DNA from: Geodermatophilus sabuli
GTDB lineage: Bacteria > Actinomycetota > Actinomycetes > Mycobacteriales > Geodermatophilaceae
Length of the DNA: 64,000 nucleotides
Reading direction: 5' to 3'
Assembly (NCBI RefSeq): GCF_900215145.1
Contig: NZ_OBDO01000002.1
Coordinates: 310,001 to 374,000, forward strand
Of this stretch, positions 26,067 to 29,644 are shown piece after piece (the first letter of the stretch is position 1; every line of letters begins with the position of its first letter). The position numbers and the translations under genes are program-made. The notes below the pieces were generated by a model that was given only the letters and a program-made list of their open reading frames with translations, made no database searches and was not told where the DNA came from.

Positions 26067-26498
26067 TCAGGGCAGTGTCGGGGCCCGGGCGCTGGCGACC
26101 GCGGTGCGCTCGAGCGGCTGCCCGCCCAGGAACAGCCAGCCGAAGGCGATCTCCACGTGTCGCGTGCAGGTCACCGTGACCTCCGCACCGTCGGTCTCGG
26201 CGGCCCAGGCGTCCAGCCGGGTGTCGCCGTCGGCGAGCTGGTCGACGATCGCCGCACCCGCGCCCGCGCGGGTCAGTGGCAGCGTCTCGCCGACCCCGAT
26301 GGCGTACAGGGTGGCCTCGTCGGTCGCGTTCGCCGCGGCCAGGGCCGCGCCGTCGCACACCGCCTGCACCTCCTGCTGCTCGAGGAAGGCATCGGAGGCG
26401 GCGACCGCGCCGAAGGCCATCAGTGCGGCGACCAGCCAGCACACCAGCACCAGGGGCAGCGTCGAGCCGCGCTCGGAACTCCGGTCGTCCTGTCGCAC
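26067..26498 (-). CDS. TadE/TadG-like (Rv3654c-type) membrane protein
   Basis: About 143 residues from GTG 26498. The start ERGSTLPLVLVCWLVAALM with a single N-terminal helix (about residues 11-33), then QEVQAVCDGAALAAANA, is the layout of helicase/secretion-neighbourhood TadE- or TadG-like proteins of actinobacterial Flp pilus loci: a prepilin-like helix followed by an aqueous domain. TACGCT on the minus strand ends six bases before the GTG, so the message may be leaderless. No other pilus gene is in the window, so it looks orphaned or at a locus edge. A longer in-frame ORF to 26627 has no family character. Confidence 0.68.
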   Translation of the reverse strand: MRQDDRSSERGSTLPLVLVCWLVAALMAFGAVAASDAFLEQQEVQAVCDGAALAAANATDEATLYAIGVGETLPLTRAGAGAAIVDQLADGDTRLDAWAAETDGAEVTVTCTRHVEIAFGWLFLGGQPLERTAVASARAPTLP

Positions 26499-26677
26499 GC
26501 CGGCAGCGTAGAGAGCCCGCCCCCTCGTCCCCTGCCTGTGGGCCGACCTGTGGACAGCTGTGGACGGCCGCGTCGGTGCGCCGGTGGAGGCGCTGGTGCC
26601 CTGTGGATTGCGTCGGTCGTGCCGCATGGGATCCCGGCTGTACCGTCCGCATCACCCGTCCCGGCGATCACGCGAAT

Positions 26678-26772
26678 GGGTGACGGTCAGGTACGTCGGA
26701 TCACTCTGTGTGACGGCATGACGGTTCGTCACACCGTCGTGATCTTCCGTGCTTGTCCCGATCGGGTGACGG
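26678..26772. promoter_or_regulatory. TGACGG repeats and an inverted repeat upstream of the microprotein
   Basis: TGACGG occurs at 26681-26686, 26711-26716, 26719-26724 and 26767-26772 on the plus strand. TGTGACG at 26709-26715 and CGTCACA at 26727-26733 form a perfect 7-bp inverted repeat with an 11-bp spacer, the shape of a dimeric regulator site. This 375-bp region (26499-26873) lies between the divergent TadG-like gene and the GSKWSR microprotein and is otherwise gene-free. Confidence 0.5.
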
Positions 26773-26873
26773 GCAGCAATGTCTCGGGCGCGGTCCGTAC
26801 CGAACGACGCTCTGCCCCCGCGCCTGGGTGACTGCCGCACGGTCGAGCAGTTCTTCATGCCTGAGGAGGCGTC

Positions 26874-26963
26874 ATGAACACGCAGCGTGGGTCGAAGTGG
26901 AGCCGGGGTTCCAAGTGGAGCCGGGGGTCGAAGTGGAGCCGGGGCTCCAAGTGGAGCCGTTGA
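26874..26963 (+). CDS. GSKWSR tandem-repeat microprotein
   Basis: A 29-residue ORF, MNTQR followed by four perfect copies of Gly-Ser-Lys-Trp-Ser-Arg. A strong ribosome binding site, gaggagg, lies seven bases before the ATG. The DNA unit is 18 bp, but Ser and Gly codons vary (tcg/tcc, ggg/ggt/ggc) without changing the peptide; tcg and tcc alternate, suggesting a 36-bp duplication. The peptide is very basic (four Lys, five Arg, no acid) and carries four Trp at six-residue spacing. I recognise no family. An 11-bp hairpin follows, and an integral membrane GGDEF-EAL gene starts 131 bp downstream. Possible roles (secreted or membrane-active peptide, nucleic-acid binder, leader peptide) are open. 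Confidence 0.7.
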   Translation: MNTQRGSKWSRGSKWSRGSKWSRGSKWSR

Positions 26964-26984: not shown

Positions 26985-27017
26985 GGGCAGCCGGCCTCGC
27001 CCCAGAGCCGGCTGCCC
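26985..27017 (+). terminator. Terminator or attenuator after the microprotein
   Basis: gggcagccggc at 26985-26995 pairs perfectly with gccggctgccc at 27007-27017 across an 11-base loop, followed by cccttcggg. It separates the microprotein from the GGDEF-EAL gene. Confidence 0.7.
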
Positions 27018-27094
27018 CCTTCGGGTTGGGTCCGTTCCCGGGCGTGTGTCCCGCTGTTAGCCTCGGCGCGCTCTCCTCCCCTCCCAGAATCCGG

Positions 27095-29644
27095 GTGACG
27101 TTGGCCAGTCCCGAGGCGCACGTGCCGTTGCCGCGCTCCGCTGCGCCCCTGCACCCGTGGGTCATCGCGACAGCCGGGGTCCTGCTCGCCCTCATCACGG
27201 CCGTCCTCGTGTTCCCGGGGACGAGCACGTCGCTGGAGCCCCTGCCGTTCCTGGTCGTGACCGCCGCGTTCTTCGTCACCGAGACCGTGTCGCTGCACGT
27301 GGAGTTCCGGCGCCAGACCTGGTCCTGGTCGGTGAGCGAGCTCGCCCTCACCATCGCGCTGGTCGAGGTGGGCGGGATCTGGGCCGCGGTGGCCCGCGCG
27401 CTCGGCCTCGGGCTCAGCCTCGCCGTCCAGCGCTACGCCCCGGCCAAGGCCGTGTTCAACATGGCGGTGGCCATCGTCGAGGTCGCCGTCGCCGTCGTCG
27501 TCCTGCAGGCGCTGCCCTTCGACGGGATCGACGACCCGATCAGCTGGCTCTACCTCCTCGTCGCCGTCTTCGCCGCCGACGTCGTCGGCACACCCCTCGT
27601 GGTCGGTGCCATCCGGCTAAGCGGGGGCAACCCCAGTCGCCGGCTGTGGCAGGAGCTCCTGCTGCCGATCGCCGTCGTCGGGCCCTTCGCCGTGTCCGTC
27701 GCGGTCGTCGCGATGATGCTGACCCGGCAGACCGGCTGGGCGGCGGTGCTCATCGTGCCCGCGGCCGTGGCCGTCATCGTCCTGTTCCGGCGGTTCGCGA
27801 GGGTGGCCGGCGAGGGGCACCGACTGCAGCGCGTGTACGAGTTCGCCCGCCGCGTCGAGCAGGTCGGGTCCGACGAGGACGGCACCCTGCGCATCGTCGA
27901 GGCGGTCAAGGAGCTGCTCAACGCCGACCGCGTCGCCCTGTGGCTGCCGCCCTACCTCGACGAGGAGCCCCGGCTGGTGGTCGCCACCGAGGACGGGCGC
28001 GCCTGGTACGACGGGCCCGGTGACCCGGACGACCTCATCCGGCGGCGGGCGACGGACGGCTCCGTCGACGGGCCGGTCCTGGTGTCGCTCGCCCGCGCGA
28101 CGGAGGCCGAGGCCGCAGCCCTGGCCCGCCGGGACGCCGAGGACCTGCTGGCCGCCCCCGTGGCCACCGCCGCGGGGGAGCCGGGGTACCTCGAGATCTG
28201 CGACCGGCGCAGCGACGCCCTCTCCTTCGCCGACGGTGACCGGTCCGCGCTGGACTCGATGCTCACCCACATCAACGCCGCGATCCGGCAGCAGCAGCTG
28301 CTCAGCCAGATCCGCTACGACGCCGACCACGACCGCCTCACCGGCCTGCCCAACCGGCAGCGGCTGGCCGTGGAGATCGACCAGCTGCTGGGCGCCGACC
28401 CGGTCGCCGGCCGCGCCGGGCTGATCCTCGCCGCGCTCGACAACTACACCGAGGTCACCGACACCCTCGGGCACGCGGCCAGCGACGAGCTGCTGCTCGT
28501 GACCGCCGGCCTGCTGCGCGAGCACGCGCCGCCGCAGGCGCTCGTGGCCCGGATGGAGGGCGAGCAGTTCGCCGTCCTGCTGCCCGGCCTGTCGCTGGCG
28601 GCCACCGAGCGCGCCGCGCGGCGGCTGCGGGAGGCCACCTCCACCCGTGCCCGGGTGGCCGGTCTCGACCTGGAGGTGACGCTGTCCATCGGCGTCGCCG
28701 CCGCCCCGGTCCACGGCACCGACGCCGGCACGCTCATGCAGCGGGCGGACGTCGCCCTGCTGGCCGGCGCCGGCTCCAGCGGCGTGGCCAGCTATCACCC
28801 GGTGCTCGACCAGCAGAGCCTGCGCCGCCTGCAGCTGGGCACCGAGCTGGAGTCGGCGATGGTCGAGGGCCAGATCAGCGTGGTGTTCCAGCCGATCATC
28901 GACGCCCGGACCTCCGACATCGTCTCGGTGGAGACGCTGGTCCGCTGGGCGCACCCGCGCTACGGCGCCATCGCGCCCGACGACTTCATCCACCTCGCCG
29001 AGCAGATCGGCCGCATCGGCCCGCTCACCGACCACGTCCTGGACCTGGCCCTGGCCCGCTGCCGCAAGTGGCTGGACCAGGACATCGCGCTGTCGGTCGC
29101 GGTGAACCTCTCCGCCCGCTGTCTCGGCGAGCCCGACCTGGTCGACCGTGTCCGGCGCGCGCTGCGGCGGCACGGCGTCCCGGGGGAGCTGCTCACCCTG
29201 GAGCTCACCGAGGGCAGCGTCGTCGACGACTCCGTCCGCAGCAGCACCGTCCTCGCCGACCTGCACGCCCTGGGGCTGCGACTGTCGATGGACGACTTCG
29301 GCACGGGCTACTCGTCGTTGTCCCAGCTGCGGCAGCTGCCGATCGACGAGGTGAAGATCGACAAGTCCTTCGTGCTGGGGATGTCCACCAGCCAGGGAGA
29401 GTCCTTCATCGCCCGCTCGATCATCGAGCTGGCGCACAACCTGGGCCTGCGGGTCGTCGCCGAGGGTGTCGAGGACGAGCTGACCCGCAACCTCCTGGCC
29501 GAGATGGGCTGCGACAAGCTGCAGGGCTTCCTGGTCAGCCGGCCGCTGCCCGACGACCGGCTGGAGAGCTGGATCCTGGCCCGCACCGGCGTCCGCTCGG
29601 CGATCCCCGGGACGCCGCACCGGCGGCTGTTCGTCCGCACCTGA
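27095..29644 (+). CDS. Membrane protein with degenerate GGDEF and EAL domains
   Basis: About 849 residues from GTG 27095 (TTG 27026 and GTG 27122 are alternatives). Seven hydrophobic helices span roughly residues 15-235, followed by a GAF-like segment (about 250-400), a GGDEF domain and an EAL domain. The GGDEF signature is E488-GEQF, so cyclase activity is unlikely, though LTGLPNR remains. In the EAL domain the signature is E613-TLVRW; the catalytic Glu stays, and DDFGTGYSS (D733, D734), VKIDKSF and AEGVED (E790) are intact, so c-di-GMP hydrolysis is plausible. TAGCCT at 27058-27063 may be its -10. Inferred role: c-di-GMP turnover under control of a membrane sensor. Confidence 0.88.
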   Translation: MTLASPEAHVPLPRSAAPLHPWVIATAGVLLALITAVLVFPGTSTSLEPLPFLVVTAAFFVTETVSLHVEFRRQTWSWSVSELALTIALVEVGGIWAAVARALGLGLSLAVQRYAPAKAVFNMAVAIVEVAVAVVVLQALPFDGIDDPISWLYLLVAVFAADVVGTPLVVGAIRLSGGNPSRRLWQELLLPIAVVGPFAVSVAVVAMMLTRQTGWAAVLIVPAAVAVIVLFRRFARVAGEGHRLQRVYEFARRVEQVGSDEDGTLRIVEAVKELLNADRVALWLPPYLDEEPRLVVATEDGRAWYDGPGDPDDLIRRRATDGSVDGPVLVSLARATEAEAAALARRDAEDLLAAPVATAAGEPGYLEICDRRSDALSFADGDRSALDSMLTHINAAIRQQQLLSQIRYDADHDRLTGLPNRQRLAVEIDQLLGADPVAGRAGLILAALDNYTEVTDTLGHAASDELLLVTAGLLREHAPPQALVARMEGEQFAVLLPGLSLAATERAARRLREATSTRARVAGLDLEVTLSIGVAAAPVHGTDAGTLMQRADVALLAGAGSSGVASYHPVLDQQSLRRLQLGTELESAMVEGQISVVFQPIIDARTSDIVSVETLVRWAHPRYGAIAPDDFIHLAEQIGRIGPLTDHVLDLALARCRKWLDQDIALSVAVNLSARCLGEPDLVDRVRRALRRHGVPGELLTLELTEGSVVDDSVRSSTVLADLHALGLRLSMDDFGTGYSSLSQLRQLPIDEVKIDKSFVLGMSTSQGESFIARSIIELAHNLGLRVVAEGVEDELTRNLLAEMGCDKLQGFLVSRPLPDDRLESWILARTGVRSAIPGTPHRRLFVRT

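Follow-up and report, generated by a model that had tools for sequence, protein, structure and literature searches.

A 64,000-nucleotide stretch of the Geodermatophilus sabuli genome (contig NZ_OBDO01000002.1, positions 310,001 to 374,000 of the forward strand), referred to in the following as the window, encodes a microprotein composed largely of a repeated tryptophan (Trp)-containing hexapeptide. Its open reading frame (ORF) on the plus strand (26874..26963) starts with the ATG at 26874, comprises 29 codons and ends with a stop codon at 26963; it was recognized by ORF reading, by its homologs and by selection at the level of the repeats. The product, MNTQR(GSKWSR)x4, has a net charge of +9 (4 Lys, 5 Arg), and Tandem Repeats Finder (TRF) resolves the array into periods of 18 and 36. 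Upstream, on the minus strand, lies the gene of a Tad (TadE/G-like) protein (26067..26627), a conserved neighbor separated from the microprotein by 246 nt. Downstream, on the plus strand, follows the gene of a membrane GGDEF-EAL protein (27095..29644), whose membrane domain begins 131 nt past the microprotein. As judged from sequence comparisons, the microprotein is probably the cognate ligand of this membrane domain, or the precursor of such a ligand, with self-recognition as the likely purpose.

An earlier note on this DNA had described GAGGAGG in front of the ATG, here read as a Shine-Dalgarno (SD) sequence (26863-26869), five lead residues followed by four GSKWSR repeats, Gly and Ser codons that vary among the repeats while the residues are kept, a charge of about +9, an 11-bp hairpin 3' of the ORF, and a TadG-like and a membrane cyclic di-GMP (c-di-GMP) protein as neighbors, all of which were found again on reading of the sequence. 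Its further inferences, an undescribed tandem-repeat family, selection on the peptide and a possible tie to c-di-GMP, are supported by the results presented below, the last by conserved synteny and by co-variation with the membrane domain of the GGDEF-EAL protein. Among the functions it proposed, a secreted signal or a precursor peptide fits best, and contact with nucleic acids has no support here. Beyond the view of the note were the change of the repeat unit from species to species with the receptor, a leader more conserved than the ORF, and a link to S8 proteases that carry Trp-repeat tails.

The microprotein family and selection on its repeats

No family of Pfam or NCBIfam matched the microprotein of the window, and 22 members of its family gave matches to only three families, each in one member and with a best E of 0.092. 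A search with the 29-aa peptide (E<=1) yielded matches in 26 of 26 genomes of the genus, only part of them true, and within the window genome of 5.5 Mb the microprotein was retrieved with E 5.5e-8. The earlier note had made its inference depend on homologous ORFs in related genomes. Genuine short ORFs behind a common leader were found at 22 loci of 22 genus genomes, the window included; at a 23rd genus locus the microprotein starts with GTG. The 138-nt promoter and 5' untranslated region (5' UTR) were then built into a covariance model; with it, the leader was located in all 26 genus genomes and in 101 of 112 Geodermatophilaceae genomes, representing 9 of 12 genera. The 104 matches lie in 100 loci, four being second copies. 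All 100 primary leaders are followed by a microprotein, 99 times at the ATG or GTG of the model and in L094 shifted by one base. These microproteins consist of 18-42 aa and carry R-x-x-[KRSM]-W-x, the unit occurring in 2-5 tandem copies in 98 of them (L094 among these); the exceptions are L158 with a single Trp and L135 with one broken repeat. The next gene is a same-strand GGDEF-EAL gene in 103 of the 104 leader matches, the exception being L137, the sequence of which ends 93 nt past the start codon. G067, missed by the leader model, contains two GGDEF-EAL paralogs, each with its own microprotein, and their units differ.

Beyond the family, model R1, applied with strict filters to 298 genomes of the order, matched 51 genomes, all of the own family. 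A search of genome contigs for the leader pattern retrieved 72 stretches, 71 of which are titled Geodermatophilus, Blastococcus, Modestobacter, Klenkia or Geodermatophilaceae; the remaining one, titled 'UNVERIFIED_ORG: Bacillus sp. AZ43', appears to match an own-family contig (G055:C12). Hidden Markov model (HMM) A4 produced matches in 23 of 394 genomes of the class, two of them own-family. Ten of the loci outside the family were read; they were mostly frames in long ORFs, with short open frames in L250 (25 aa) and L252 (56 aa) and nothing in L247, and none of the ten had a GGDEF-EAL gene within 3 kb.

The repeats allow selection to be read within single genes. Adjacent units of 97 arrays differ by 294 synonymous and 22 nonsynonymous changes, corresponding to a ratio of nonsynonymous to synonymous differences per site (pN/pS) of 0.022; between species of one genus the pN/pS of the unit is 1.08. 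(The sets used for selection and for the co-variation described below omit the four second copies, L094, L158 and L135.) In the last unit of each array, position 1 is Arg and position 5 is Trp in 97 of 97 cases and position 4 is Lys or Arg in 94 of 97, whereas positions 2, 3 and 6 vary, resulting in 62 different units in total. The low pN/pS between units, the conserved Arg and Trp positions and the 62 units are strong evidence that the microprotein is translated and that the repeats of one array have to agree with each other, whereas the unit itself can be chosen freely. Neutral homogenization of the repeats was ruled out, as pS between adjacent repeats (0.377) exceeds that between species (0.291) although the amino acids are nearly identical. 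A chance or low-complexity artefact was ruled out by the homologs, the conservation of the leader and pN/pS. The family is a clear case of repeats held identical inside one gene but free to change between species.

Two side observations concern the family. In genus g9 (Modestobacter, e.g. L161, L112), 21 of 22 microproteins read W-K/R-W, an extra Trp preceding the conserved one by two residues. Second leader copies lie on minus strands 0.5-2 kb upstream of the main copy (L108:3246-3378, L127:4715-4853, L116:5101-5224); those of L108 and L127 precede ORFs of 70 and 77 aa with a basic start and hydrophobic segments, and no Trp-repeat ORF.

Co-variation of the repeat unit and the membrane domain

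The GGDEF-EAL protein, for which the GTG at 27095 was chosen as start (the mechanical ORF begins with TTG at 27026), is composed of a hypervariable membrane domain (about residues 1-240), a linker, a degenerate GGDEF domain and an EAL domain. The membrane domain matches no Pfam family; its predicted fold may be like that of an ECF S-component, with a weak best Foldseek match (E 0.022). The linker gives weak GAF matches. Since the GGDEF motif is degenerate, reading EGEQF, and the motifs of the EAL domain (Pfam, E 4.3e-69) are intact (ETL, NLSA, ELTE, DDFG, KIDKSF, AEGVE, QG), the protein is probably a c-di-GMP phosphodiesterase. In a tree, the microprotein-linked receptors form one clade; L257 and L158 are one gene labelled apart, so that the microprotein label shows 2 changes, and L261 was too short.

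Co-variation was determined in 76 species, represented by the window and by 75 loci at which the available GGDEF-EAL protein sequence exceeded 650 aa. The mean distance is 0.54 in the membrane domain, 0.26 in the linker and 0.136 in the catalytic part. Unit distance correlates with membrane-domain distance when the other two domains are controlled (partial Mantel test, r 0.265, p 0.001; within genera p 0.002), and in the same test neither the linker nor the catalytic part correlates with unit distance. The correlation is 0.261 with Tad, present in 72 of the 76 loci, as control and 0.253 with the leader as control; Tad versus unit, controlled for the membrane domain, gives r 0.057 (p 0.13). The association is carried by unit positions 2 (r 0.29) and 3 (r 0.117). 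Near-sister pairs, pairs with the window omitted, have a catalytic identity of 98% in both sets, but a membrane identity of 0.90 when they share the unit (n=9) versus 0.59 when they do not (n=27). Among the natural near-sister alleles are, for example, RGWRWS and RNWKWG, at a catalytic distance of 0.005. In 25 disjoint near-sister pairs with equally conserved catalytic domains in both classes, the median membrane difference is 7% for the same unit (5 pairs) versus 42% for different units (20 pairs; p 1.3e-4). The divergence extends across the entire membrane domain and drops near residue 240. Such a pattern is that of a specificity cassette, in which a putative ligand and a membrane domain vary together between conserved flanks.

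Several observations weigh against this interpretation. The partial Mantel values may be inflated by shared phylogeny, the 9 and 27 near-sister pairs share species, and few same-unit pairs exist. Among the five disjoint pairs that share the unit, one reaches a membrane-domain difference of 0.30, and the average is 0.61 for two same-unit pairs whose catalytic domains are distant. Before the membrane domain was controlled, weak correlations with the unit were obtained for Tad (r 0.105, p 0.029; 0.18 within genera) and for the leader (r 0.10, p 0.018; 0.08 within genera). Within the unit, position 4 is only slightly associated with the membrane domain (r 0.069) and position 6 not at all (r 0.027). 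If the membrane domain evolves rapidly for reasons unrelated to the unit, it would separate recently diverged species more finely than the control genes do.

Matched alleles are known also from toxin-immunity pairs. The microprotein might accordingly be a cationic Trp-rich toxin or bacteriocin, as its net charge of +3 to +9 and its Trp and Arg content would allow, and the membrane domain the matched immunity determinant. The fusion of this domain to a probable phosphodiesterase and its putatively S-component-like fold suggest a design for ligand binding rather than for immunity, and a toxin is hardly to be expected.

Leader and transcript

The most conserved DNA of the locus is a promoter-like stretch followed by a 5' UTR with two hairpins. 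The earlier note had seen an operator-like region by the ORF; the conserved stretch stood, but its reading was refined to these elements. In the alignment, the promoter-like stretch (26753..26782, plus strand) consists of the -35 sequence TTGTCC (26753-26758), an 18-nt spacer with the conserved GGGTGACGGG, and the -10 sequence CAATGT (26777-26782). Among 22 species CTTG is invariant, as are A and T at -10 positions 2 and 6, from which we infer a promoter. Hairpin 1 (26787..26824, plus strand) pairs GGCGCGG (26787-26793) with CCGCGCC (26818-26824) around a highly conserved 24-nt loop, and hairpin 2 (26830..26852, plus strand) pairs GACTGC (26830-26835) with GCAGTT (26847-26852) around a variable loop. 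Over 104 sequences, 94.6% of the cells are paired in hairpin 1, with changes on both sides in 2 of 7 pairs, and 88.4% in hairpin 2, with such changes in 4 of 6 pairs. Together, in an alignment that had been fitted to the structure model, 91.6% of the cells are paired versus 87.7% after shuffling, and two-sided changes occur in 6 pairs versus a shuffled mean of 2.5. Rfam gave no match over 26750-26960 at E up to 1. A known riboswitch was rejected; the Tad ORF contains a match to c-di-GMP-II-GCG, but its 28.1 bits stay below the threshold of 47.9 bits, and it was taken as chance. Upstream of the promoter-like stretch (26640-26750) several species-variable GTGAC/GTCAC half-sites may form an operator; they are palindromic in relatives, e.g. 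GTCACCCGTATCGGTGAC in L022.

The SD region ATGCCTGAGGAGGCGTCATGA (26857..26877, plus strand) is kept in most of the 22 genus sequences. It can also be read as a candidate 6-codon ORF, MPEEAS*, in ATGA overlap with the microprotein start; this is not found in all genera, and in L016 the mini-ORF continues in frame into the microprotein. Behind the ORF, the 11-bp stem of a terminator-like hairpin (26985..27017, plus strand) is formed by GGGCAGCCGGC (26985-26995) and GCCGGCTGCCC (27007-27017). In relatives, the best hairpin 3' of the ORF has a mean minimum free energy (MFE) of -31.4 kcal/mol, compared with -22.2 kcal/mol when each locus was shuffled once (n=101; L137, with 24 nt after the ORF, was left out and two second-copy leaders were included). 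The extended -10-like element TGTTAGCCT (27055..27063, plus strand) is read as the GGDEF-EAL gene's own promoter; TGNTA[AG]CCT occurs between the microprotein and the next gene in 76 of these 101 loci and is missing in 21 of 22 loci of Modestobacter. Because a strong hairpin follows the ORF and is itself followed by this element, the microprotein most likely forms a separate short transcription unit, as far as can be read from the DNA.

The conserved, structured 5' UTR and the constant position upstream of the GGDEF-EAL gene would suit a cis-acting leader peptide or a dual-function RNA that controls this gene by attenuation or translation. Arguing against this very improbable alternative are the terminator-like hairpin and second promoter-like element between the genes in most loci, selection between repeats that acts on amino acids, and variation of the unit with the membrane domain that persists with the leader as control.

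Proposed recognition and known systems

In the model favored here, that of a ligand and its receptor, the microprotein would be made from its own short transcript, and the identical Arg-x-x-Lys/Arg-Trp-x units, or hexapeptides cut out of it, would bind the putatively S-component-like membrane domain. Binding would alter, in one direction or the other, the activity of the attached phosphodiesterase. Since ligand and membrane domain behave as one matched allele with conserved sequence on either side, self-recognition or sensing of cell density, as by ComX/ComP and AgrD/AgrC, is the most likely purpose of the pair. The pair may be derived from an older arrangement, a gene for a related GGDEF-EAL sensor that is preceded by the gene of a secreted Trp-repeat protein, in many cases as the tail of an S8 protease. 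In several actinobacterial families, S8 subtilases (Pfam) with Trp-repeat tails adjoin, upstream, membrane GGDEF-EAL genes (L263, L267, L273, L275, L278, L279, L282, L284, L285, L297); their arrays have period 5 (WSGxx) and are uniform (pN/pS 0.005). Outside the window genome 29 homolog loci were collected, of which 7 were not relocated; 11 further matches had no locus. Ten of the 22 classed homologs in other families follow a Trp-repeat ORF (L259 and L260, labelled 'none' by the script, were relabelled by eye), at least 8 of these being S8 proteases. In L260 and L261 the Trp-repeat partner stands behind a signal-peptide-like start, as judged by eye.

Not all findings favor the ligand-receptor model. 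Eleven of the 22 classed homologs have no upstream Trp-repeat and one has too little DNA, and a looser microprotein criterion also picks up control segments (5 of 818 and 4 of 1448). The weak point is export, since no signal peptide is seen on the microprotein; nor is an exporter or a modifying enzyme among the seven neighboring ORFs scanned with Pfam (pyruvate ferredoxin oxidoreductase, DUF520, Tad, GGDEF-EAL, M1 peptidase and two without family). An unexported peptide could act within the same cell as a small regulator of the type of MgrB and SafA, on which the GGDEF-EAL protein depends or by which it is inhibited; the co-variation would then be compensatory and not a matter of self-recognition. 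The likely own promoter and terminator and the strict pairing with the GGDEF-EAL gene agree with this, as do the missing signal peptide and the co-variation itself. There would be no obvious reason, however, for 62 units and a membrane domain 40% divergent at about 98% catalytic identity, and the Trp-repeat partners of related sensors reside on S8 proteases or behind a signal-peptide-like start (L260, L261); we consider such a regulator unlikely. Less likely still is the precursor of a ribosomally made, modified peptide, be it the signal or not, for example with a Trp-x-Arg three-residue cyclophane or similar. The invariant Trp and Arg in W-x-R spacing, the short polar N-terminal stretch and the tandem cores would fit such a precursor, but many arrays end at W-x without the final Arg, the window peptide matches no NCBIfam precursor model, and no maturase is among the seven neighboring ORFs scanned, the genome elsewhere not having been searched.

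A farther-reaching form of the ligand-receptor model is possible, yet tentative. The leaderless microprotein would release Trp hexapeptides as a code of species or strain between cells, read by an allele-matched, putatively S-component-like domain fused to a phosphodiesterase, so that kin identity would set the second messenger in one step. This would constitute a new actinobacterial class of self-recognition and a reduced descendant of a secreted Trp-repeat/S8-protease and GGDEF-EAL system.

We know of no signal for most membrane GGDEF-EAL proteins. Here, sequence by itself supplies a candidate ligand and the receptor domain matched to it, in dozens of naturally occurring alleles, which renders ligand specificity directly testable. 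If the model is true, Actinobacteria would couple peptide-based recognition to c-di-GMP with no kinase cascade in between. The analysis also exposes the Trp-repeat/S8-protease/GGDEF-EAL association in other actinobacterial families; in the open-licence literature no description of this association, of the microprotein family or of the membrane domain was found.

In the ComQXPA system of Bacillus, a small, extremely variable peptide gene, with Trp as the constant residue of the peptide, lies beside the receptor gene, and ComP combines a variable polytopic N-terminal receptor domain with a conserved cytoplasmic part, resulting in pherotypes (PMC4008528). A variable peptide gene adjoining a receptor with a hypervariable membrane domain, with co-varying alleles, is likewise found here. 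Unlike in ComQXPA, the receptor output is GGDEF-EAL and not a histidine kinase, no ComQ-like prenyltransferase is among the seven neighboring ORFs scanned, and the microprotein, in contrast to ComX, is a tandem hexapeptide array that has no Pfam match (no pairwise sequence comparison was made). By analogy, the microprotein system would work like ComX/ComP; it is not a member of ComQXPA, since ComQ is missing among the neighbors scanned and there is no kinase. A Trp attenuator leader peptide was rejected, as the next gene encodes GGDEF-EAL rather than Trp enzymes and a hairpin and a promoter-like element lie between.

AgrD/AgrC and other peptide pheromones of Firmicutes form specificity cassettes of ligand and membrane sensor between conserved flanks. 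The microprotein locus has this organization but lacks a histidine kinase and, among the neighbors scanned, an AgrB-like protease, and its host is actinobacterial. With the S8 subtilase loci it shares the place upstream of a homologous gene and uniform Trp arrays; those are long and of period 5, whereas the microprotein has period 6 and neither a protease domain nor a signal peptide. In LapD/LapG, a membrane GGDEF-EAL receptor acts with a periplasmic protease. The protein studied here resembles LapD as a degenerate GGDEF-EAL membrane protein paired with a putative extracytoplasmic protein, but its match to the LapD model is far under the cutoff (146 vs 1020 bits) and spans the GGDEF-EAL part only. 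No part of the locus matches a known family of such systems; the logic of a matched peptide and receptor is already known.
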